Virus record (IMG/VR): IMGVR_UViG_3300027143_000001
Coordinates: 45,119 to 109,118 of that record
Strand: one strand, 5' to 3'
DNA: 64,000 nt
Source of the DNA: a virus
Under the pieces are notes generated by a model that saw nothing but the letters and a program-made list of their open reading frames with translations, ran no database searches and was not told the DNA's origin. Position 1 is the stretch's first letter. Each line of letters begins with the position of its first letter. The translations under genes were made by a program, and so were the position numbers. Of this stretch, positions 24,492 through 61,429 are shown in pieces.

Positions 24492-27400
24492 TTATATTTG
24501 TCCACCATCTTCCTTACGTCTGTGCTGATAAGGAATGCGCTGGCTGGATGTCTTTGTTCTTTTAAATTTTTCTTTCTCTGAAGCACTAAGTTCTGACGAC
24601 GTTTTAGGTGTGTCATCAGATACACGTTTAGAGGGTCTGCATGCAGGATATCCTTTACGCTTTTCACCTTCCTGTCTTCCGCAAGGTTTACCGGTTTTTA
24701 CATCAACCCACTTCTCTGCAAACCAGCGGTCAAGTCCGCCATGCTCTCCTCCCCCTACAAATTTACTCAATGCTCCGCCAAAAGCAAAACCTTCTGGTGT
24801 AGATTCTTGTTCATCCATCATCATACCTGCACCTACAGCTGGTATTGCAGCAGGTAACATGCGAATCAACTTGCGTTTATCTTCTATAGAAGTGTTGCCT
24901 TTGAAGAACCTGTTGAGGTATTGGTCTTTGATCATATAGTCTACCATATCATCTGAAGGATTCTGCAATGCCTGAATGGCTTGCTCCATACTTATACCTG
25001 ATTCCTGAGCATATCTCTTTGCAAGGTTCATGCGCGCCACCATTAACTCAGAGTGAAGTTCTTTTGGTGAGGCCGCCCATGTTTTAACTTTGTCTTTATT
25101 TGCTTTCCTATATAATGGAAGTTCAACATCCTCAATCTTTTTAATCTTGTCATCATACTCATCTACAATTTGTATTGCAAAATCATAATGATCATTTGTA
25201 GAAACTTTTCCGGCAGCCACGTCGTCATTGAGCTGCTGAAGCTTTGCATTCTTTTCATCACCTAAGTCAATAAGTCTTTGACGTATTTGCTGATAACCAA
25301 CATCATCTCGCCACAGCTTTGGTTCAACCATTGCATCTGCAAACATTTTACCTGTAGGTGTAGATGTGTTTGCAAAAAAGTAAGGAGTGATGGTTGAGTC
25401 ATAATTTGTAATAGCGCTTGACCAGGGAAAAACTGGATCCCCAAATCTTTGAAAAGTGTGACCTGTTTCGTGTGCACTTGTTGCAGCAACACCTTTTGGA
25501 TCAACATGATAAAATCCCTGATTTCTTAAGGTAATGTTATAATCGTTATTGTTTACACCAAGTATCTTACCCCTATTCTCTGTAATGTAATCTTTAGCAG
25601 TATCAACAATTTTAGAGTCTGCGGCAAGATCTGAAGAACGACTGCTTACAAGCCTTGAAGGATTAGTGTTCAAAATATTGTTAGAGTCCATAACTGAGCT
25701 ATTGGTATCAAACGTCAGTCGGAATCTATTAACCGTTGCTGGATCAAGTGCGGTAGCGCGGTCAACAACTTGACCTCTGATTTCTCCGTCAGGGCCATAA
25801 ATCCACTGCTTGACAAAGTCCTCACCTTCTTTAAGTGCCGCGTCTTGTTTGGCCCATACCTTTTGCTTTTGTGATTTTGTCATAGGAAAGATCTCAAAGA
25901 ATGGACGCTCTCCTTCTACCACTTCAGCCAACCCTTGACCAAGTCCATATAAATGCTCATTAACGGCAGGAGTCTTTTTTTCTCTGACAAACTTAGCAAG
26001 CTTACCATCTCCTTTGGGTTGCCACACACTGGCATCATATGCAAAGCTTCTAAATTTACTAGGTAAATTACCAAAGATACTTGCAGAAGCAGGAGCTGCT
26101 GCTTGTGACATTTGTGCTACATCTTGCGAAGCATTCACCATCCTGCCTATGTTTCCTGCACGTGTAGCATCGTCTATAATTCCTGCACCTACTAGGTTTA
26201 GTGGATCCGATCCTGCTAAGATTAATTCTTCTAGCGCCTGTGTACTGCCGGGTTGAACATAAGATTCCAGGCTACCATAAGTCATAGGCTTTGTACTTCT
26301 GCCAGACACAGCATTTGCCATATCCCCACTGAACGCTCCTCTGACAAGATTGCTGGTATACCCTAATGGTGCAAACACTCCCAGTCGTGACGCATTCTTT
26401 GCTTCTTCAGGACTCAAGTCTTCATCATTGTAGTCAATACCAAATAGATTAGCCATACCCTGGCGGAACTGTGTACCCATGTCTGGGTTCAAATTGTATC
26501 TAGCCTGGGATTCTCCAATAATGCTAAGCTGCTCAGGTGTAAATGTCTTTAACCACTCTTGGCGGTTTCTATCACCTTGAGGGTTTTGTGCCAAGATTTG
26601 TTCTGCTACTTTAGTACGTGCATAATCATATGCCCTTTTTTTAGAGCGCTTGTCGCTGTATGCATCAAAGCCCACCGCACGGGCAAATCCTGTGTCTTCT
26701 TTACCCATCCACTCTTTGGCAAACTTGTCCATATCACCTGCGTATTGGCCACGATCTGACATGACCTCTACAGGTTTTCTATAAGTGAATACAGGGGCGT
26801 TGTTTTTAGTGTCCCACGATGTGTAACCACTATCAAACAAAAAATCAAAACGTCTGTCATTGGCACGATCGTAATTAAACTTACGCTGCCCTTCTGCAGG
26901 CTTTACATATTTTTCAATGAATGCTTCTTTTTCTTCTACTGTCAGCTCTCTTCCTCTGCGCTGCTCCTCACGATTAAGCATATCAGACCACTGTTGTGCG
27001 CCTTGTGTGTATGCCTTCCAACCAGCTTCATATTCTGCACGCTGGTCAGCATTATTCATAGCATCATAGTTTGTAACTGGAGCATCAACGCTTTTGCGCC
27101 TGGGCCCACCTTTGACAAACTTCTGCAATTTTGAATTACTGTAGGTTACACCACCGTCTCGCTGAACTTCATGAAAAGTAAACCACCAACCAAAAGGCGA
27201 GTTCTTATCCTTCTTACCCATGTCACGGTGCAATAGTTCAGCGTACGTGTGCCCCGTAGTGCCATGATCGCGTATAGGATATTCATCCAGGTCATCAGGA
27301 TTCATGTGCCTATAATGATCCATTGTTCGCTTCATCTCAGGATCATCTTTATACTTATCATGCATGGCTTTAAAAGTCTGCTCGCCAAAGTATCCATCGG

Positions 27401-28286
27401 CTTCTACACCTAAAAAGTTCTGGATGTTTTTAATCTTTTCAGGAGTAAGATGATAATATGATGTCATGGCAATACCAGGCTCATACAATCTGTGAGTTTT
27501 ATACTCTACAGTCCCTGGAGTCTTGTACGTGTCTTCGCCATACCTAAGTCTTTCCAATAAAACCTCAAGATTCTGTCCTACATTGCTTAAGCCAGGGTCT
27601 TTGACATGCGCCATTTCTGCAATAAGATTGGATATAAACTCCTCACGAGGCTCTTTACCAACTCCAATTTCATTAAAAAAAGAGTTGTAATGAGCTCTGT
27701 TTTCTTGGTCTGCAAATGCGCCATCAAAGTTAATTTTATCAACACCTTTACCTCTGTTTACCAACTTAGCAAGCTCAGGATAAACATTAAGAAGGTCTAC
27801 ATACATTTTTGCATTGGGATGAGACATATCAATGTTTACAGGATCTGTATCTTTTCTGGTGTTGTACCTGTCACTATTCCACATAAACTCTTGTTCACCC
27901 GCTGCTCTAGCTTTGGCAAATGCTTCATCTCTAGTGGGATATTGAGAGTAGTCATCTAGTCCCCAGTTCTTAGGATTTAACGCTGCCCCTACAGTTTTAA
28001 GCATGCCTGGTTTTTTAATAGCCCTGGTTTTAATTTCTAAGCCAGGCATTGAGGTGCCGGATTCCCATATGTTATCCTGCACATCAAACAGTGCTAAGTC
28101 TTGAGGAGGAACAACATGCTCTCCTTGTTCATTAACATAATATCTTTGGTCTTTGAACCTTGGGTCCAGGAATACACTCTCCCCTGTGGGAAGTTTATAC
28201 TCTCTCCACCCATTCTCTCTAGGACCTCCTGTTACATACTTGCGCAAGTTTCTTTTGCCAAAGTGTGAATTGTAATCATTATTCAT
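24492..28286 (-). CDS. Virion cargo protein: peptidoglycan-binding-like repeat, HExxH metallopeptidase and C-terminal CRPSKRVS domain, 1264 aa
   Basis: Several modules can be read. Residues ~20-30 hold the motif LRKYVTGG. Residues ~120-145 hold a short AFAKARAAG...FMWNSDRYNT domain recalled from related cargo proteins. Residues ~285-315 (IKNIQNFLGVEADGYFGEQT) fit a type-1 peptidoglycan-binding helix bundle. Another copy of the short motif (LQKFVKGG) follows. Residues 939-943 are HETGH, the zinc site of a zincin metallopeptidase; a downstream Glu in the HSELMVARM helix could be the third ligand. The last ~75 residues (KWVDVKTGKPCG, YPACRPSKRVS, TPKTSSELS) form a small Cys-containing domain recalled from giant viruses and large phages. 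The mix fits a tail-ejected protein that acts at the cell wall or on host proteins. It lies 18 bases after the lysin gene. Activities are unproven. Confidence 0.78.
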   Translation of the reverse strand: MNNDYNSHFGKRNLRKYVTGGPRENGWREYKLPTGESVFLDPRFKDQRYYVNEQGEHVVPPQDLALFDVQDNIWESGTSMPGLEIKTRAIKKPGMLKTVGAALNPKNWGLDDYSQYPTRDEAFAKARAAGEQEFMWNSDRYNTRKDTDPVNIDMSHPNAKMYVDLLNVYPELAKLVNRGKGVDKINFDGAFADQENRAHYNSFFNEIGVGKEPREEFISNLIAEMAHVKDPGLSNVGQNLEVLLERLRYGEDTYKTPGTVEYKTHRLYEPGIAMTSYYHLTPEKIKNIQNFLGVEADGYFGEQTFKAMHDKYKDDPEMKRTMDHYRHMNPDDLDEYPIRDHGTTGHTYAELLHRDMGKKDKNSPFGWWFTFHEVQRDGGVTYSNSKLQKFVKGGPRRKSVDAPVTNYDAMNNADQRAEYEAGWKAYTQGAQQWSDMLNREEQRRGRELTVEEKEAFIEKYVKPAEGQRKFNYDRANDRRFDFLFDSGYTSWDTKNNAPVFTYRKPVEVMSDRGQYAGDMDKFAKEWMGKEDTGFARAVGFDAYSDKRSKKRAYDYARTKVAEQILAQNPQGDRNRQEWLKTFTPEQLSIIGESQARYNLNPDMGTQFRQGMANLFGIDYNDEDLSPEEAKNASRLGVFAPLGYTSNLVRGAFSGDMANAVSGRSTKPMTYGSLESYVQPGSTQALEELILAGSDPLNLVGAGIIDDATRAGNIGRMVNASQDVAQMSQAAAPASASIFGNLPSKFRSFAYDASVWQPKGDGKLAKFVREKKTPAVNEHLYGLGQGLAEVVEGERPFFEIFPMTKSQKQKVWAKQDAALKEGEDFVKQWIYGPDGEIRGQVVDRATALDPATVNRFRLTFDTNSSVMDSNNILNTNPSRLVSSRSSDLAADSKIVDTAKDYITENRGKILGVNNNDYNITLRNQGFYHVDPKGVAATSAHETGHTFQRFGDPVFPWSSAITNYDSTITPYFFANTSTPTGKMFADAMVEPKLWRDDVGYQQIRQRLIDLGDEKNAKLQQLNDDVAAGKVSTNDHYDFAIQIVDEYDDKIKKIEDVELPLYRKANKDKVKTWAASPKELHSELMVARMNLAKRYAQESGISMEQAIQALQNPSDDMVDYMIKDQYLNRFFKGNTSIEDKRKLIRMLPAAIPAVGAGMMMDEQESTPEGFAFGGALSKFVGGGEHGGLDRWFAEKWVDVKTGKPCGRQEGEKRKGYPACRPSKRVSDDTPKTSSELSASEKEKFKRTKTSSQRIPYQHRRKEDGGQI

Positions 28287-30458: not shown

Positions 30459-33400
30459 CGTGGACTATTCAAATGCTTGGTTAAACCTACTTTCAAGATC
30501 ATCTTCTTATCTGTAGAAGCAGTCTTACGCAAGATGACTCTGTTACCATAGTGACGGAACTTCTTACGCTGAAGAGCAGGCTTGTCATAATTAATATACT
30601 GAGGATTTACTGTACGTTGGTAACCATTACAATTGGTAATCCACATTGGTGTCTGGTCAAAGCTAAATTCACCGCGGTCGTTAGTGTTGTCCCAGAACTG
30701 ATTGAAGCGATACTTGTTCTCTTCCTTAGCCACCATGATCTGCATGTTGTACTGTGTAATCACGGGTTGCGCCACCAATGCAAACGGATCATTCTTAGGC
30801 TTGGTGTTCAGCTTTAGAATACCTGAATGCTGTTCTGAATTATAGATGATTGCGGTATCAAAGTTCTCATCCAACACGTGGTTGTAATCAACACCATTGT
30901 TATAATATTTGTACGCCTCCATCCAGTACTCCACACTTCTAAGGGTTGTTACACCGGTGGTGTTGACTACAGGAAACTCAATCTCCCATCCTTTTTGCTC
31001 ACCATAGTACTCAGTAAACAGGTCCCACTTAGTGTTGTGTTTCCAGATACCAGAACCCTTCACTGTAAAGAAATGCTCATATGCGGGCATGTTCAGGTCT
31101 GGTGCCCAGCTGTGAAAACTGATCCACTGCTTGCTCTTTGGGTCATAAGACACCGTCCAATTACAAGGCTCAAAACAGTTAGGGTCATCAAACTTACAGG
31201 GGCATGTTTTGTTAATTGGATCGCGCGGGCGAGGTGTAAGAGTTACAGTACATGTACTTGTACTACCCTTTCCATCATCCAGTAGCAATGTGTATATAAC
31301 CTGGTCTCCCACAGGAACTACCACTGCGCTTCCATCTACGGGTACTGAAAATGATTCTACAAGGTTCAATGATACGTAGTTTACCTCAAGCGTTGCGTTC
31401 ACAGCGCTTATAGTTGTCCAATATAACAGTACTTGTTCTCCTTCTGTAAACACGTTAGTGTTTGCTTCAAAATTACACCCTATGCCTGGAATGCATACTG
31501 ATGCCGAAACAGCATCTACAACAGATTGCACAGAGGCAGGGCTTGACGCATTTACTGCATATTGATAAGATCCTATTCCGTTGGTAGGTCCGTTAAAACA
31601 TGATATTTTTCCCAAAGTTTCTTCTACGTTTGCTGGAACTGACGCAGTTGGTCCTGCATAAATTCCATATACAAACTGGTTGTCAGGACCCGATGCTGAA
31701 CCACCCAGTGTAGCAGACTGAAGAAAGCACAAATCGTCAGAAAGACCTGACTGCTGAGCAGTAGATTGGCTATCCGTTATGACTAATAATATTTGCCTAA
31801 AGGCAGAACTGGCAGAGCGGTCTCCAAGCTGAGAAGAAGTTTTGTTATTCAAAACATCCCTTCCCTCCAAAGCGCCATTTCTAATGTGTGTTCCATTACA
31901 ATACCAGTTATCAATAAGCCATGTTTCAACTTCGGCACCTGTAATGGTATTACTCATAGAAAATCCATTAGGTGTCATGGAGACCTGATCGTTTTGACCC
32001 GACCAGGATACAATACCTACCTGGATGTTACCTTCCTGCATAGACTGAAGAATCGCAGGGGATTCCAAAAACTGCCTTATAAAAGATATCTCAGCTAATG
32101 CAACTGAACCAACGGGGATGTTAGAAACACATCCTGTACTACCTGAACTGTCCACAGCAATCACAATGTCAATCAAGCAGGATGCACTAGGTTGTGGTAG
32201 TCCTACAATGGCGTCAACCACAGGATCCACAGGAGTAATAGGCGGAGGTGGCGTCTGGCCACAGATATAGTAAGGCACACCGGTAGGACTGTCAAAGTAC
32301 AAGTCACGGCGCTTAGGGATATAGTCCTTCTTAGAGAAATACAACAGTTCATACTGCTGATCATACATTGTCTGGCAACCAATACCTGCTACAGGATTAT
32401 CGTATAGTGGAAAGTCAGGATACGCTTCCAGTAACTTAGACGGCAGATGCTCATTGAACCAGAACTTCAGACCGTCACGGCTAATCTCTGTTACTCCTCC
32501 ACCACCGTACTGCATAATTTTACCTGTCTTCTGAGACATAAAGAACAAACCAAATGGTGTGTTCACCGCAGAACGGGATGATATACATGATGCATAATCT
32601 AGGGCGTCGTCTGCATTGACAACGCTTTGCATATTCTGCTGGAACAATCCGCCATCTCCAATGGTGATTTTTACGTCACCTTTGGTCTGCAATGTATCAA
32701 CACCAACAAATTGTACAGGTTCAGCATCCTCAAACAGGATAACTGCTCCCTGTGCATTCAGACTTTTGATAGTTGATATCTTGCCACTAAAGTCTTTATA
32801 ATTCAACGGGAGGTAGTTCCTCCAGTTGTCTCGCTTCATTCCTGAACGCTGTGGTAAACTATAGACAGCCCTGTTTGGGAAATACTCAAAACATGAGGAA
32901 TACAAAGCGGGGTCATAGTCCCGTGGTAGGACAGATCCCCAGCTTGCAGTGTTGTTGAAGAGTTTGCTGGCAGATAATGAAGTGTCGTATTTGGCATAGA
33001 TTGGTGTTTTGATCATGTCTGTGCGGAACATGGTACTCAGGTCATTAAATGAGTTTCCATATACGTCATAGAACTTTTCACGGTCATCTTCTCCATAGTC
33101 ACGGTAAGCCATGTTTAGCTCACTTTCACAGAAGAAATCACGTACCCCATTGTAAAACAGGTATGCCCAAACATTTCTCAACAAGAAAGTGCCTGTATTA
33201 TTACCTCTGTCAAAGCGGTGAAAATCAGATGGCGTGTTGAAGTTAATACCAGTTGGCTTATTGATGTCAATTCCAAGAAATGATACTGTCTCTGTTTCTA
33301 CGGTAACACCAAAATCAGTAACGTCGTACTTACTCAGGTTAGCCCAATAGCGAGGACAAGGTCCGTTGACATAAATACGATAGTCCATCTCTGCACCATC

Positions 33401-36187
33401 TGGCTCATTGAACATCCAGTTATTGAAAAAGTAGAATGGATTCTTTTCTGTAAAACGATTGATGTACACATCTCCACCAAAAATTGTGTCTGTGGTAGTT
33501 GTTATGCTAATATCAGGCGTTGACGGATACACACAGGAATTTACAGGAATCTGTACAATACTTTCCAGCAATCCATACTGGTTCTGAAAGTCTAATTTAA
33601 TAGCACCATAGTATGCGGTGGTATTACTGTTGAACGCACCAAAAGGAGTTTTGTGGTTTACTCCACCTCCTACATCGCGCACGCGCTTACGTGAATTGTC
33701 TGTAGAGCTTTGAGGATCCGGAACATTGCTGGTAAGTTTGATACCTACAAACTTGTTGCGGTTATTGTTGTTAATGCGGTATGTTGCGTCAAAATCCTGC
33801 AGGGCTCCGCCTACATATTTGGCACCATTATCTGATACCAGCCTGCTAAATGACGGAGCACTTGACCCTGTCGCGGAATTGGTGACATTGCTAAAGCTGT
33901 GATAGAAACCGTGGGAATTGTATTGCAACATGTAGTCGCGGTAACGACCCATGGCAAATATAGCTCTCAACACCTGGTCAATGGCCATACTTCCAAAATA
34001 AGTCATCTGAGCAACCATTAAAGCTACGCCGGCTGCAGTTGCCGCAATAGAACCCTGAGCACCAGTACTGGCAGCCTGTAGACCTGCTGTGGCAATTAAA
34101 TCAGGTATAGCGGAAGCCTGACCAGACTCTTTTGCACCATACGCTACCACAAATCCACCAAGTGCGGCACCCACTTCATTACCACCAGTTACAGTAGTAC
34201 TGCCTAAACCAATAACTGCTGCAAGACCCAGACCTACAACAATGGCTGCACCAAATGCACCGTCTGTAAGCAATTTGTGTTTGGGATGCTTATGAGGGAC
34301 CTGGAAACTACCAGTCACCGTGCCGCGTTCTTCTGTATAAATCTTGATATGGTTGCCACCCAGGTAAGGGCGAATGAACGCGGTCTCTGGAGAGTGGAAT
34401 GAAAAGTAGTTCTTCTTGTATGTGCTTAGCTTGCTGGCGCTTTCCGCCTCTTCTGAACCACCTGTATCAAGCGCGGTAAAGTCAGGTGTCAAAAATGGAT
34501 CAGGGCGCAAGTCATTGTAAGGATAGTTTTGATACAATCCTTTTCTGGTAGTGCTGCTTCCGGCCTGTGGAGTATACTCCCACATGTTGTTGAACATCCC
34601 CTTAGCAACAATGGAACGGTTGCCCTCACGTGAACCTCTTAGGATCTCATAGCCCACAATGTCAGCAAGAGGATTGCCGTTTTCATCAACAGGATGGGAT
34701 ATGTTTGCAAACTCAACACCAAGCACGTATATCTTATCACCGCCTTGGCTGTGTATATGCATTGTCTCATTGGACGGCATTTTATGGTGACGTATGGGTT
34801 TGCCACAAAGGTCTCCCCATATTTCAGGTTTATCATCAGGATATGTGTTTACACTCTCCCAGTAACCCATTTTACCCTTGAACACAACAGCTCCACCATC
34901 GCGAGTTTCCCCGACAGAAGGTGTCTTAGTTGATGTGTCATACACCTGCCAGCGTTTATTCTGACCAGCATAGACCACATCGCCTGAAGATATTATATCA
35001 ACATCATTAGCATTTGAAGCCCTGCCTGGTATATGAAACGATGCACTGCGTGCCCCAGTCTGATATACCCAGCGAATGAAGAAGGAATACACCTCATCAC
35101 GCATGTAACCCAGCGATGTACCTGCTCCCCAGTAGTAATCAGCTGCATATTCTGCAGCTACCCATTTAGTAGTAATCTGGTTAGCCAGGGGTTGATAGTT
35201 AAAGTATGGTTGAGTAGTTACGCCTGTACGAATGAGGTAATCTCCAACCTTGTGGATCTTGTCACTCTTTTCATAGACAACGTTTCTCAATGGTAATACG
35301 TTGATGGGAACGGTTTCAAGTGCAGAGCTGTAGTTGTCTAATGTTACCTTGTTCTGACGTATAGGAAAGTTGCCAATTTTTTTAGCAACCGGATTCTGCT
35401 TTGTCACAGATACAATTACCAACTCATATTCTTCAAAGCTCTGATCCAGGTTGGAAAGTTCAATATCCAAAGATCCACCCAATCCTTCATGATCCCATAG
35501 ACCTACAGGTGTGCTAGGCATTGAGTAGTCTGTAAGGCGTATGCCATTCTCAGAATAGGCAACACATGCCATGTAGCTCCCGTTATTGAGCTGACCTCCT
35601 CCAGGTGCACGTCTTACATTTACACATGGCTGGTCAACTATAGGGTGCAAACGAATAGCGTCGCAGTCAAGCTGCGTAGTATATTCAGGAATAAAGCAAT
35701 CAGGATCTTCAGAAAGGTTGTTGCCTGTAGTCTTGTATGGAATTCTATCCACGTTGAGCATGCGGTCAGGGTTAAGACCGTCCTGGAAGTACACGCTATG
35801 GGTGCAGTCATAGTTCTCTTTGCAGACACCTGTGATCAGATTAGTTTGCTTAAAACCCAAGCAATTGTCATTGACCAGCATCTGGTAAGTTTCAAGTTGC
35901 TCATCAAATACACCAATCTCTGATTGATAGTTGTTGGTAGAAAATATCAGCCATTCGCGTCCTGACTTGTGTACAGCACCAATGATTGTATAAGGCGCGT
36001 TAGATGCATTGTAGTTTGCAGGCTCATTAGAAACGGTACCCTGCTCACCAAGATGCGAATTGTTGATTGCGTTGATAGCATGTGTCCACGCCTGGTCATT
36101 CATGTAGATGTCAGCGACATCTTTATTCATGCCTTTTACAAACGAGTTCGCCTTGATTCCTGATGTATTGGGTGTAGTCTGTGCCAT
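30455..36187 (-). CDS. Muzzle-like tail protein with inserted vWA and Ig-like domains, 1910 aa
   Basis: The N-terminus (SFVKGMNKDVADIYMNDQAW, then NSHLGEQG and NEPANY) and the C-terminus (KEENKYRFNQFWDNTNDRGE, ITNCNGYQRTVNPQYINYDK) match what I recall of the crAss-like muzzle protein that closes the distal tail. A Gly/Ala-rich hydrophobic region lies near residues 640-740. Unusually, a von Willebrand A domain sits at ~1330-1530: D1346-S-S-G-S forms the DxSxS metal site, a Thr follows in NGTHIRNG, and D1472 is in VITDSQS. Next comes an Ig-like segment (~1540-1625), then a Cys-rich stretch (CPCKFDDPNCFEPC) that resumes muzzle-like sequence. A Pro-rich linker precedes the vWA domain, as expected for an insertion. 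It lies between a small zincin and the lysin gene. The muzzle call rests on terminal similarity and order; the vWA call on the motif. Confidence 0.82.
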   Translation of the reverse strand: MAQTTPNTSGIKANSFVKGMNKDVADIYMNDQAWTHAINAINNSHLGEQGTVSNEPANYNASNAPYTIIGAVHKSGREWLIFSTNNYQSEIGVFDEQLETYQMLVNDNCLGFKQTNLITGVCKENYDCTHSVYFQDGLNPDRMLNVDRIPYKTTGNNLSEDPDCFIPEYTTQLDCDAIRLHPIVDQPCVNVRRAPGGGQLNNGSYMACVAYSENGIRLTDYSMPSTPVGLWDHEGLGGSLDIELSNLDQSFEEYELVIVSVTKQNPVAKKIGNFPIRQNKVTLDNYSSALETVPINVLPLRNVVYEKSDKIHKVGDYLIRTGVTTQPYFNYQPLANQITTKWVAAEYAADYYWGAGTSLGYMRDEVYSFFIRWVYQTGARSASFHIPGRASNANDVDIISSGDVVYAGQNKRWQVYDTSTKTPSVGETRDGGAVVFKGKMGYWESVNTYPDDKPEIWGDLCGKPIRHHKMPSNETMHIHSQGGDKIYVLGVEFANISHPVDENGNPLADIVGYEILRGSREGNRSIVAKGMFNNMWEYTPQAGSSTTRKGLYQNYPYNDLRPDPFLTPDFTALDTGGSEEAESASKLSTYKKNYFSFHSPETAFIRPYLGGNHIKIYTEERGTVTGSFQVPHKHPKHKLLTDGAFGAAIVVGLGLAAVIGLGSTTVTGGNEVGAALGGFVVAYGAKESGQASAIPDLIATAGLQAASTGAQGSIAATAAGVALMVAQMTYFGSMAIDQVLRAIFAMGRYRDYMLQYNSHGFYHSFSNVTNSATGSSAPSFSRLVSDNGAKYVGGALQDFDATYRINNNNRNKFVGIKLTSNVPDPQSSTDNSRKRVRDVGGGVNHKTPFGAFNSNTTAYYGAIKLDFQNQYGLLESIVQIPVNSCVYPSTPDISITTTTDTIFGGDVYINRFTEKNPFYFFNNWMFNEPDGAEMDYRIYVNGPCPRYWANLSKYDVTDFGVTVETETVSFLGIDINKPTGINFNTPSDFHRFDRGNNTGTFLLRNVWAYLFYNGVRDFFCESELNMAYRDYGEDDREKFYDVYGNSFNDLSTMFRTDMIKTPIYAKYDTSLSASKLFNNTASWGSVLPRDYDPALYSSCFEYFPNRAVYSLPQRSGMKRDNWRNYLPLNYKDFSGKISTIKSLNAQGAVILFEDAEPVQFVGVDTLQTKGDVKITIGDGGLFQQNMQSVVNADDALDYASCISSRSAVNTPFGLFFMSQKTGKIMQYGGGGVTEISRDGLKFWFNEHLPSKLLEAYPDFPLYDNPVAGIGCQTMYDQQYELLYFSKKDYIPKRRDLYFDSPTGVPYYICGQTPPPPITPVDPVVDAIVGLPQPSASCLIDIVIAVDSSGSTGCVSNIPVGSVALAEISFIRQFLESPAILQSMQEGNIQVGIVSWSGQNDQVSMTPNGFSMSNTITGAEVETWLIDNWYCNGTHIRNGALEGRDVLNNKTSSQLGDRSASSAFRQILLVITDSQSTAQQSGLSDDLCFLQSATLGGSASGPDNQFVYGIYAGPTASVPANVEETLGKISCFNGPTNGIGSYQYAVNASSPASVQSVVDAVSASVCIPGIGCNFEANTNVFTEGEQVLLYWTTISAVNATLEVNYVSLNLVESFSVPVDGSAVVVPVGDQVIYTLLLDDGKGSTSTCTVTLTPRPRDPINKTCPCKFDDPNCFEPCNWTVSYDPKSKQWISFHSWAPDLNMPAYEHFFTVKGSGIWKHNTKWDLFTEYYGEQKGWEIEFPVVNTTGVTTLRSVEYWMEAYKYYNNGVDYNHVLDENFDTAIIYNSEQHSGILKLNTKPKNDPFALVAQPVITQYNMQIMVAKEENKYRFNQFWDNTNDRGEFSFDQTPMWITNCNGYQRTVNPQYINYDKPALQRKKFRHYGNRVILRKTASTDKKMILKVGLTKHLNSPR

Positions 36188-42067: not shown

Positions 42068-43414
42068 TTATACTACTACGTTTGTAAGGTCACCGAACAT
42101 GTACCACAACGCGTCACTTCTTTTTACCAAAGTGGCAGCACTGTATCGTGTTCTTAAATATTGCATGCTGTTGGCACTTTCAAGGGTTACGCCTATTCCG
42201 CCTATGATGCGCACCTGTCCTGTTCCCTTTTGCATAATCGTCACCTGGTAGCCAACCGGAAAGTTGGTTAATCCTGCTGGAACAGTGATGGTTACAGGGT
42301 TGGAAGATTCGGCCAATACAACAACACCTGCATCTGTACTGGGAAAAGTTGCAGGGCCTCCTCCGGCCTGAACAGATCCTACAGCACCATCTGCTTTCAA
42401 TGTATATGCAACAACAGCACTCGTCAAATCTCTGAATCCTGCGACTCCTGTTGAACTGTTGGCTCCGTTGGAACCTGCAGGTCCCTGAGATCCTGTTGCA
42501 CCTGTCGCTCCTGTTGCTCCTGTTGGTCCAGCAGGGCCAGCGGGTCCCGCGGGGCCGGTAGCTCCAGCAGGTCCGGCAGGTCCGGTTGCACCCGTAGGTC
42601 CAGCAGGACCGGCAGGGCCAGCAGGACCAGTAGCACCAGGTAAACCATTGGCACCATTTGCTCCGGCAGGTCCAACCAGGCTAATACCCGTTGTTGGCCA
42701 TACCCCTCCTACTTTTGGGCCTATGAGAATGTTGGTGTCGGTTCTGATATAGTAGTCGCCATTGTTACCAATTGAATTGTTAGGCGCAAAGTTTCCTGAA
42801 AGGATTAAGTTTCCAGCAGGTCCTTGTGGGCCAACGCTTCCTCCAGTACCAGGAGGGCCTGCGATCTGGCCTAGATTCACCCAGCCGCTTCCATCCGCTG
42901 ATGTACTAGTAGGGTCATAAACATATATAGTCCCATTGACACCACTATCCACATCCGTTAACATGACAACTGTCAAGGGATCAGGTGTAGGAAAGTCTAC
43001 AAGCATGGTTGCATATGTAGATGTATATCCCTCAACCGTTACAGATTGTCCGGGAGCACCGGGAGGGCCTTGGGCACCTATGGCGCTGATCTCAATAACC
43101 TGTCCAGGCGTATCCACCACCACAGGGTCAATTCCGCCATTTAAAGTGACACTGCCGTCTAGTGCAGGTTGCAGGGTAAAGTTATTTGCACCACCAATGT
43201 TTCCATTGTTAGACAAACCTTGCAGTACGTCAGTCATGTTGTCGCCAGTATCAGCAACACCAGGAATGGCTGGTCCGTCATAACGAACACAAGATGTATT
43301 CATTACCTCTGGGCATGGCTCACCATCTACGCAGATGGGAGGTGCAGGTACGGTAACCGGAGGAGTAGTTGGCTCCTGAGGGCATCCGCAAGTTGAAGGG
43401 TTATCAGGGTACAT
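42068..43414 (-). CDS. Collagen-like fibre protein, 448 aa
   Basis: The N-terminus is Pro/Cys-rich, followed by [12 protein letters not shown]...[12 protein letters not shown], an anchor-like motif also present in the neighbouring 528-aa fibre. Two short collagen-like patches ([25 protein letters not shown]) precede a continuous run of 24 Gly-x-y triplets at about residues 248-319. The C-terminal ~110 residues form a beta-rich head. Gly-x-y runs make triple helices, so the protein is expected to be a trimeric rod with a distal binding head. The gene lies between the Fn3 fibre and the propeller protein. A head fibre or tail fibre are both possible. Confidence 0.82.
42458..42673 (-). repeat. 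Collagen-like Gly-x-y coding repeat (24 triplets)
   Basis: Nine-base periodic coding repeat, mainly GPA, GAT and GPT triplets. It encodes the triple-helical shaft of the fibre. Such DNA is prone to length change by recombination. Confidence 0.9.
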
Positions 43415-43438: not shown

Positions 43439-45025
43439 TTAGGGTTGGGCACACATGTTATAAGAAACACCTGCACAAAGCGGTACGGTTTGACCAGTGA
43501 TTGACTGCACACATCCCAAAATGCGGGTGACAGTTCCACATTGTCCGGTTCCTGAACATAGTGCGGTTGTTACGGCAACATAGTCAAGAGTTGCTTGAGA
43601 ATTACCTCCTGTAATTGACAGAACCTCTGTGTAGTAGCTTTGTACACCACATTCATTGGTAAGTTCAAAATACAAGGTTACATCTATCGTTGCGCCTGCA
43701 TTGCTAATAGGAGATCCTGTAGAAGAGTTCTGAAGAGTTACAGTTATACGCTTATTGGTTTCATTGTATGTAGTTGTCGATCCTGCAGTTGGTGTACAAT
43801 CAACAGTTGTTGTTGGAAGAATGGTCTCCTCAATATCTATGCACATCGGAATTATAGAAGACCTAAGCACTGCAATTTGCGTCACAGGCGCACTTCCACA
43901 GCCATAAACTGCTGTTACACGCACTGCGTAGTTTTTGTTCTCATTAGCAAACCCGTTTAAAATTGTAAGAGGTAAAGTTGCTGGATGAGATAAAATAGTC
44001 TGAGGTAATAAAGATGGACCTGATGGAGTGCTACCTATAAGATTAAAAATCTCAACAACGTACTCAATTGGAGGTTCACCAGTTCCATACAAGGGATCAC
44101 TCCAGGAAATCTGAAAATTATTTGATGTCACATTGTTGATGCTTAATCCCCGTACAGGTAAAGGAGAACACACAAGTACTTCCTGGCAACAGTCAATGAT
44201 CTTTGCTCTCATATCGCAGATGGTGATCCACATGTTGGAAAGCGTTTCTGCTAGTGTACTAGGATTACTTACCCAGCCTGGCAAATCTGCCATAATTGTT
44301 CCAGGTGTCATCAGTGAATCAACTGATTCAATAGTTGCACATCCTGCATAATCTGTCACAGCATTAATCTGGGCAATAGATCCCAGTACAGCACTTAAGT
44401 CACAAAAGGTAGACTCAAAGTTGGCAAACGCCATTTGGATAGGCAATACCAAACCAGGAGAAGGACCACTGGCACATTGCGTAGTGATGTTAATCACAGG
44501 AGATCCTGTAGTAGGCGTCTGATTTTCCAGAATTGTTACACGCTGGTCAAGGCTGTCAAGTTGTGTTTGGTGATCGTCTGTGATTGTGTACAGATCACAA
44601 ACAGCATTTGCAATAAGATCAATGTACTCTTCCTGGGTAACCTGTGTAATAGTATTGCCATCCCCGTCAATATATTGCAAACAGGCTGGTAAATCGTAGA
44701 GCATGTCAGGACCTGGTGTTACAGGATCGTCTGTCAACGCTTCACATAATTTATTTACAATAAGCTGGATAAGTGCTTCCTGTGTTTCAGGAGTAGTGTC
44801 ACCCACACCCAGCAAACAGTTTACATCTATGCCCGCTACATCAAACAGATTATCATTTAGCTCGCATACTTTAAGTGCAAGCTGATAGACCACATCTGTG
44901 ATTGTGTCCCCGCTGCACAATGACAGGCAGGAAATATCCGGTCCCTGCCACACCACACAGTTGCTGGACAACGGTGTACAGTTGGCATTTGGATCAGGAT
45001 TGCTATTTGACCTTACAGGGTTCAT
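43439..45025 (-). CDS. Fibre protein with Fn3 domain, 528 aa
   Basis: Residues ~18-55 hold SSNCVVWQGPDISCLSLCSG and DTITDVVYQLALKVCEL, an anchor motif shared in pattern (CV, aromatic-x-GP, GD, T-D-V, L) with the collagen-like fibre. Helical segments follow, with TLTDDHQTQLDSLDQRVTILENQ-type heptads (residues ~145-175) typical of trimeric coiled coils. A fibronectin-III domain lies at about 300-395 (PVRGLSINNVTSNNFQISWS to AVRVTAVYG). The C-terminal ~130 residues are a Cys-containing beta domain. The gene overlaps the 76-aa gene by 4 bases. It is probably a head or tail fibre; the bound partner cannot be read from sequence. Confidence 0.72.
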   Translation of the reverse strand: MNPVRSNSNPDPNANCTPLSSNCVVWQGPDISCLSLCSGDTITDVVYQLALKVCELNDNLFDVAGIDVNCLLGVGDTTPETQEALIQLIVNKLCEALTDDPVTPGPDMLYDLPACLQYIDGDGNTITQVTQEEYIDLIANAVCDLYTITDDHQTQLDSLDQRVTILENQTPTTGSPVINITTQCASGPSPGLVLPIQMAFANFESTFCDLSAVLGSIAQINAVTDYAGCATIESVDSLMTPGTIMADLPGWVSNPSTLAETLSNMWITICDMRAKIIDCCQEVLVCSPLPVRGLSINNVTSNNFQISWSDPLYGTGEPPIEYVVEIFNLIGSTPSGPSLLPQTILSHPATLPLTILNGFANENKNYAVRVTAVYGCGSAPVTQIAVLRSSIIPMCIDIEETILPTTTVDCTPTAGSTTTYNETNKRITVTLQNSSTGSPISNAGATIDVTLYFELTNECGVQSYYTEVLSITGGNSQATLDYVAVTTALCSGTGQCGTVTRILGCVQSITGQTVPLCAGVSYNMCAQP

Positions 45026-45252
45026 AGGGTATTGATTCTTTCAATTACAGCATCATGTGTACAGCCTGCGCTGTCAACGTTACATCCACACGCTTTTCGC
45101 TCCTCTCCTCTCATATAGAGATTTCTCAGATCATCTGCCAGGTCAGCATCCACTTTTGCGCGACAGGTCTTAAGACCAAAGCGCTTGCGCTGCATGTCCT
45201 GAAAAAGAGCATCTGCAAAGAGCTGGTTGATATGGGTTAGCGTGTCAGTCAC
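45022..45252 (-). CDS. Small Cys-containing phage protein, GTG start, 76 aa
   Basis: Helical N-terminus (INQLFADALFQDMQRKRFGL), then KTCRAKVDADLADDLRNLY and a C-terminal CGCNVDSAGC cluster. I recall similar small proteins beside fibre genes in Bacteroidota phages, function unknown. The start is GTG, shown by the GTGA overlap with the stop of the 54-aa gene. The stop overlaps the fibre start by 4 bases, so it sits in a translationally coupled chain. Confidence 0.65.
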   Translation of the reverse strand: MTDTLTHINQLFADALFQDMQRKRFGLKTCRAKVDADLADDLRNLYMRGEERKACGCNVDSAGCTHDAVIERINTL

Positions 45253-61337: not shown

Positions 61338-61354
61338 CTTGGTTTTTCACTTAG

Positions 61355-61429
61355 TTGCGGGGGCAGGATTCGAACCTGCGTACTTTGGCTTATGAGACCA
61401 AGCTGGGACCAACTCCAGTCCACCCCACC
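61355..61429 (-). tRNA. tRNA-Met(CAT) or tRNA-Ile(CAT), atypical
   Basis: T arm GCAGG-TTCGAAT-CCTGC is perfect. The anticodon arm is TTGGT-CTCATAA-GCCAA with anticodon CAT. The D arm is CTGG-AGTTGGTC-CCAG, and the variable loop has 5 bases. The acceptor (GGTGGGG with CCCCGCA) pairs at six of seven positions, with G1-A72 unpaired and one G-T pair. Four bases, not two, lie between acceptor and D stem. CCA is not encoded. The stem lacks the three G-C pairs of initiator tRNA, so an elongator Met or a lysidine-modified Ile is more likely. Confidence 0.8.

Follow-up and report, generated by a model that had tools for sequence, protein, structure and literature searches.

The window analysed here is a 64,000-nucleotide stretch (positions 45,119 to 109,118) of a virus contig 109,118 bases long, IMG/VR record IMGVR_UViG_3300027143_000001. 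Its minus strand carries an intact open reading frame whose product has as its best PHROG match phrog_37948, a virion structural protein (E = 3e-61), and a full-length homologue (80%) at a related locus, L001. The window additionally encodes a Crass_capsid protein and a CrAss_Ring_1 protein, and these matches together identify a crAss-like phage and its muzzle (tail-tip) gene. The assignment is sound, being based on homology to the crAss001 muzzle gp44 and on linkage with the crass ring and capsid genes. A profile alignment to GenBank gp44 spans gp44 residues 1005–1304, and Foldseek returned the crAss001 muzzle as the top PDB matches of an AF2 model built for the C-terminal half of L010, a relative (7QOL_P, E = 1.4e-13; 7QOK_A, E = 7e-13; TM 0.53), whereas the sequence profile found no match to gp44 in the PDB library. 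Downstream of the muzzle gene, window 24492–28286 encodes a 1264-residue protein that matches DUF5872 at its C terminus (E = 1e-14), has a weak peptidoglycan-binding match and may be a tail cargo protein. A collagen-repeat protein (42068–43414; Pfam Collagen, E = 6e-12) and the adjacent protein with an fn3 match (43439–45025; E = 4e-5) are probably tail fibre parts. A tRNA-like gene with an anomalous anticodon, called tRNA-???, is located at 61354–61429.

Within the muzzle gene, a cassette spanning about 31187–32278 carries a von Willebrand A (vWA) domain and an Ig-like domain between the two stems of a hairpin, hairpin A (Table 1); PPPPITPVDPVV lies ahead of the vWA domain. The initial annotation had recognized the Pro-rich linker and the three elements of the metal site (MIDAS) behind it, and all of their positions are correct; the finding exceeds what chance would give. 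The interval it drew, 31440–32230 (residues 1320–1583), covers the linker and the vWA domain but cuts the Ig-like segment, which reaches to about residue 1655 (31223).

Table 1 The muzzle gene and the elements of its two hairpin sites (window coordinates; fractions give conservation among the aligned relatives of the vWA subfamily)
Feature	Position	Strand	Remarks
Muzzle (tail-tip) protein CDS, 1910 aa	30455..36187	minus	intact ORF
5' stem of hairpin A, VPYYICGQT, aa 1304–1312	32252..32278	minus	kept in filled and empty relatives; beta strand in the empty-site L010 model
Pro-rich linker, aa 1313–1336	32180..32251	minus	
von Willebrand A domain, aa 1337–1565 (approximate), flanked by conserved Cys1337/Cys1565	31493..32179	minus	
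MIDAS loop 1, DxSxS = DSSGS, aa 1346–1350	32138..32152	minus	D1346, S1348 and S1350 in 44/44
MIDAS loop 2, T1433, within GTHIRNG	31889..31891	minus	44/44
MIDAS loop 3, D1472 (TD motif), within VITDSQS	31772..31774	minus	43/44; Asn in one
Ig-like domain, aa 1570–1655 (approximate)	31223..31480	minus	also beside type-2 vWA or PA14-like heads at site A in relatives
3' stem of hairpin A, INKTCPCKFD, aa 1658–1667	31187..31216	minus	
Site B hairpin, aa 1705–1717	31037..31075	minus	empty in the window; type-1 vWA subfamily there in other muzzles

The fold of the insert emerges from profiles and models. With the window sequence alone, Pfam VWA scored 14.4–19.2 bits, under its curated cut-off of 23.8; neither phmmer of the single sequence against the PDB nor a tblastn search of phages and plasmids with the domain found a match, and profiles were therefore needed. 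Pfam VWA matches 10 of 27 muzzle inserts (best E = 7e-17), and a profile of 17 inserts searched against the PDB retrieved the vWA domains of collagen VI, integrin alpha I and proximal thread matrix protein 1 (PTMP1; best E = 1.4e-7). An AF2 model of the vWA–Ig segment, computed from the window domain and 16 relatives, has a mean pLDDT of 80.8, with about 90–97 across most of the vWA core. Its DSSP order, E-H-H-E-E-H-H-E-H-E-H-E-H, is the strand and helix order of a vWA domain (alternating alpha/beta, Rossmann-like). Among the best Foldseek matches of this model are the vWA domains of PitA (7W6B), SpaC (6M48) and TRAP (4HQL/4HQO/4F1J) (E = 7e-8 to 1e-6, probability 1.00); complement C2a/B and further structures also match with probability 1.00, and the TRAP structure is Mg-loaded. 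The TM scores of PitA, SpaC and TRAP normalized to the model (0.35–0.41) reflect the shared vWA, with no common domain order or ancestry beyond it shown. The Ig-like segment is modelled as a seven-stranded sandwich (model residues 249–331, pLDDT mostly ~87–94), and none of the Pfam Ig families matched it. The vWA fold with an intact MIDAS and the Ig-like domain behind it, both proposed in the initial annotation, are thus borne out, the former by model topology, Foldseek, the 17-insert profile and conservation.

Across 44 aligned relatives of the vWA subfamily the MIDAS is invariant save for one D1472 (Table 1), whereas the median identity per column in the same alignment is 51%. This contrast is strong evidence that the MIDAS is under constraint. 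D1472 lies at the border of a low-confidence stretch in the AF2 model; the geometry of the MIDAS and an outward orientation of the domain are predictions, and the site would be a putative binder of Mg2+ or Mn2+. The MIDAS is lost while the vWA fold or position is kept in L013, L035 and L063, and also in the split genes L012 and L014 (below), so metal is not always needed. The two cysteines that bracket the domain are likewise conserved (Cys1337 in 44/44, Cys1565 in 43/44) and may form an end-to-end disulfide.

Two insertion points, sites A and B, were found in the C-terminal part of the muzzle by means of three conserved anchors, the muzzle set being the best 80 loci from a scan with a five-muzzle alignment. 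In the window protein, site A with its stems spans residues 1293–1667, and site B consists of a turn of three residues (1710–1712). Both sites are empty in L010. In the AF2 model of its C-terminal part, site A folds as a hairpin (PYYNCGTKT-turn-TSSGKCP) and site B as a tight turn joining two strands, both being hairpin tips within a part of the model with pLDDT ~80 or better. The stems of site A are common to filled and empty relatives (VPYYICGQ...TCPCKFDDP in the window, VPYYNCGT...KCPCEYDDP in L010), and define the flanking motifs VPYYxCG...KCPCxFD. Relative to its close relatives, the vWA–Ig unit of the window is a clean cassette inserted at the hairpin tip. By profile alignment, site A falls near gp44 residues 1201/1202 and site B near 1236/1237. 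The crAss001 muzzle has tight turns at both places and no vWA (7QOL, 7QOK; PMC10172136). As the IG2/crass region of gp44 comprises residues 318–1021 (PMC10172136), both sites map outside it, past residue 1021; the module is indeed inside the muzzle, not in the distal 'crass' domain but at a hairpin of the C-terminal part, which we take to be the propeller. A third, variable insertion point lies near the muzzle N terminus (residues ~152–163, window ~35700–35735), where crAss001 has IG1; L059, L061, L067, L071, L073, L084, L108–L111 and L122 have about 140–220 extra residues there.

Site A accepts unrelated heads. In relatives with 59–77% identity in the surrounding sequence, the hairpin is empty or bears a vWA of a second subfamily (type 2) or a PA14-like domain. 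In the core clade of the window, the site holds a type-1 vWA with Ig (window and L001), a type-2 vWA with Ig (L006, and L007 with an extra domain) or a PA14-like head on the same kind of Ig (L009 and L043), and is empty in L008, L010 and L015. On the two flanks of the insert L006 and L009 share 86% and 89% identity, yet their heads, a type-2 vWA and a PA14-like domain, are unrelated; support for the name PA14 is weak, with two members and a best E of 0.0065. The insertion is thus sporadic, the vWA being missing in close relatives, and the presence in all relatives that would have refuted the initial annotation does not occur. On the core tree of the best 80 loci, presence or absence of the canonical vWA requires 7 changes and filled versus empty requires 10. 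About two thirds of these muzzles have neither site filled, which makes the module dispensable for infection in general. A scan for the type-2 vWA found 6 loci, all of them muzzles with the domain at site A.

The sockets show other variations. A 555-residue insert at site B of L034 (L034:11603–13267) lacks a vWA, shares the Cys-rich frame common to vWA-bearing inserts and is possibly, by eye, a lectin/LamG-like domain. In three relatives the muzzle gene is in two ORFs with the break within site A (L011:11515–11573, L012:11416–11425, L014:11071–11077): the stop of the first ORF (TAATAATAA in L012) is followed by an A-rich spacer and a ATGGCTTG/ATGGCGTG start. The second ORF of L012 and L014 contains a vWA-like region without DxSxS together with anchors B and C, and that of L011 is cut off by the contig end. 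The arrangement resembles a natural fission of the gene at the socket.

The type-1 vWA has a wider distribution than site A of this clade. A scan built on a narrow alignment, A5, found it at 37 viral loci, each of them a muzzle, and always at site B except in L001 (found again as L097), the window being the second site-A case. The one type-1 match in a bacterial genome collection comes from a Pseudomonadales bin, in which a contig of 115 kb encodes a muzzle with the vWA between anchors B and C, so that 38/38 database matches of the subfamily (the 37 viral loci and this contig) are muzzle proteins. A recent origin from a bacterial vWA finds no backing in that sole genome-collection match, itself a muzzle. 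The insert is not a single curiosity: many other muzzles of environmental crAss-like phages have the same vWA subfamily at site B, and the site A socket also takes other domains.

Comparison of the domains with their hosts indicates movement. The window vWA is 33–41% identical to the site-B vWAs of distant muzzles and only ~26% identical, with a far lower score, to the type-2 vWA–Ig insert in the same socket of its near relative L006; site B holds the type-1 vWA in another frame than site A. In the vWA tree, the window and L001 are nested among site-B vWAs, with L099, L102/L103, L046, L060, L100 and L104 (96/89). In the core tree, the window groups with L006–L015 and L108–L122 (100/100). AU tests reject the vWA clade expected from shared core ancestry (p = 1e-8), the core clade expected from the vWA tree (p = 3e-55) and, in a second conflict in which the vWA of L108–L122 groups with L047/L106/L107/L118, the corresponding core clade (p = 4e-137), although the groups were named once the trees were seen and these p values are optimistic. 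The discordant trees led us to reject vertical inheritance at site A and, with the AU rejections, argue that the vWA module moved between lineages and sites. Hidden paralogy, in which both sites were filled once and the domains later lost many times, is a less likely alternative that needs far more events.

The head has also diverged further than its scaffold. For the window and L001 as a pair, dN amounts to 0.53 over the vWA, 0.31 over the Ig-like domain and 0.06–0.12 over the core, with dS saturated in all regions. The vWA dN/dS for this pair is about 0.26, and with saturated dS fast evolution is inseparable from past replacement of the vWA, and positive selection is beyond judgement. The cassette displays hallmarks of a receptor-binding type, namely modular exchange and divergence above that of the scaffold (in dN, with dS saturated).

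Taken together, metal-dependent adhesion at the tail end would be the best reading of these data, and the segment is, in our judgement, probably an exchangeable metal-dependent adhesin head on an Ig-like stem that a surface beta-hairpin of the muzzle carries at its tip. If the muzzle is hexameric as in crAss001, six vWA copies would ring the tail end, facing outward. Mg2+ or Mn2+ in the MIDAS would engage an acidic ligand of a host surface protein or polymer, giving a second contact once the tail fibres have engaged, and recombination that swaps heads would retune the cell surface that is gripped. Such a head may thereby affect both adhesion and host range. A broader proposal is more tentative: that the muzzles of environmental crAss-like phages have, in their C-terminal hairpins, two standing sockets for receptor-binding heads, that unrelated domains (two vWA subfamilies, PA14-like, others) are swapped by recombination across lineages and sockets, that the type-1 vWA is confined to muzzles and that the head sets the second-step contact and host range.

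The ligand might instead belong to the virion. vWA domains are common protein–protein docking modules and some bind collagen, so the MIDAS could bind an acidic residue of a tail fibre, of a collagen-like fibre such as the collagen-repeat protein of the window might form, or of a neighbouring muzzle subunit, and stiffen or arm the tail tip. Such internal docking is unlikely. The module has been swapped for unrelated domains and moved between sites with no visible co-change, which external ligands fit better. Collagen-repeat genes within 7 kb are not associated with the muzzle vWA (1/13 loci with it, 7/60 without), and binding to the phage's own collagen-like fibre was discarded on this ground.

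The vWA could also act as a mechanical trigger, in line with the gate suggested in the initial annotation, with a ligand or a pull on the domain passing through the hairpin into the propeller and opening the muzzle gate. In vWA domains, ligand binding at the MIDAS can be coupled to a change of shape, and VWF A1 has an end-to-end disulfide, to which the bracketing Cys1337/Cys1565 pair can be likened. Both sites fall within the stretch that corresponds to the crAss001 muzzle beyond residue 1021. In crAss001 a loop from propeller blade 4 forms the gate (PMC10172136), so coupling to it is possible. We consider it improbable: the Pro-rich linker and the Ig-like domain would damp the coupling, close relatives fire without the module and unrelated heads fit the same socket.

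We give equally little credence to passive attachment to mucus, exopolysaccharide or environmental particles, which would raise the number of encounters with no receptor specificity. Ig-like, PA14-like and vWA domains are all known from non-specific surface adhesins, and the relatives are metagenome-derived viral contigs, but a late, specific contact would be better served from the tail end than from the capsid. Finally, a neutral passenger, tolerated and without function, would agree with the absence of the module from most relatives among the best 80 loci and with the loss of the MIDAS in a few, but is highly improbable given a metal site kept through 44 diverged copies (D1472 in 43), repeated gain and retention, and the vWA dN/dS reported above (dS saturated).

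The adhesin-head reading has its closest experimental parallel, by analogy, in PilB of the Streptococcus sanguinis type IV pilus (T4P), in which a vWA with a canonical MIDAS is loop-grafted onto the filament tip subunit, as in the muzzle (PMC8179133). In this tip pilin the vWA module requires metal to adhere, and its MIDAS is important for adhesion though not for structure; PilB is a bacterial pilin in which metal and ligand binding were measured, whereas for the muzzle vWA we infer both (PMC8179133). Predicted vWA folds occur in Rhodobacter phage RcTitan (A0A0K1LKT9) and in a virion protein of Pseudomonas phage PaMx28 (A0A0S0N896), so a vWA in a phage protein is not new; these are other proteins, not muzzles, at about 10–13% identity. 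N4-like phages have a core vWFA gene of another kind (PMC4193335). In crAss001, gp52 (NC_049977 65502–66269; L085:45503–46270) is annotated as von Willebrand A-like and is a separate gene, distant from the muzzle. Horizontal swapping of adhesive-type domains in tail proteins, as seen here, is known from the tail-associated BACON repeats of crAss-like phages, which differ in domain and protein and are tandem repeats, whereas muzzle heads are swapped at a fixed hairpin (PMC6949934).

Modular receptor-binding domains of phages are already known; what is described here is such domains at two defined hairpin sockets of a crAss-like muzzle. For the crAss001 muzzle, length variation was reported in the crass and IG2 regions (318–1021), not at these hairpins, and the muzzle was presented as a gate that may contact the cell through its tip (PMC10172136). 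A literature search outside which subscription papers and preprints fell, and which is no proof of novelty, returned nothing joining Crassvirales with von Willebrand, and the muzzle papers it found do not describe the hairpin inserts.

To our knowledge, how crAss-like phages recognize cells is mostly unknown, and a constant insertion site for interchangeable adhesive heads offers a concrete place where host contact may be decided. The stem motifs VPYYxCG and KCPCxFD, together with the site B turn, provide a sequence handle for cataloguing such heads across viromes. A MIDAS-containing domain of adhesin type appears to have been recruited to a phage nozzle, in parallel to the vWA domains on bacterial pilin tips, which suggests that gripping modules can be exchanged at sockets of the tail nozzle.
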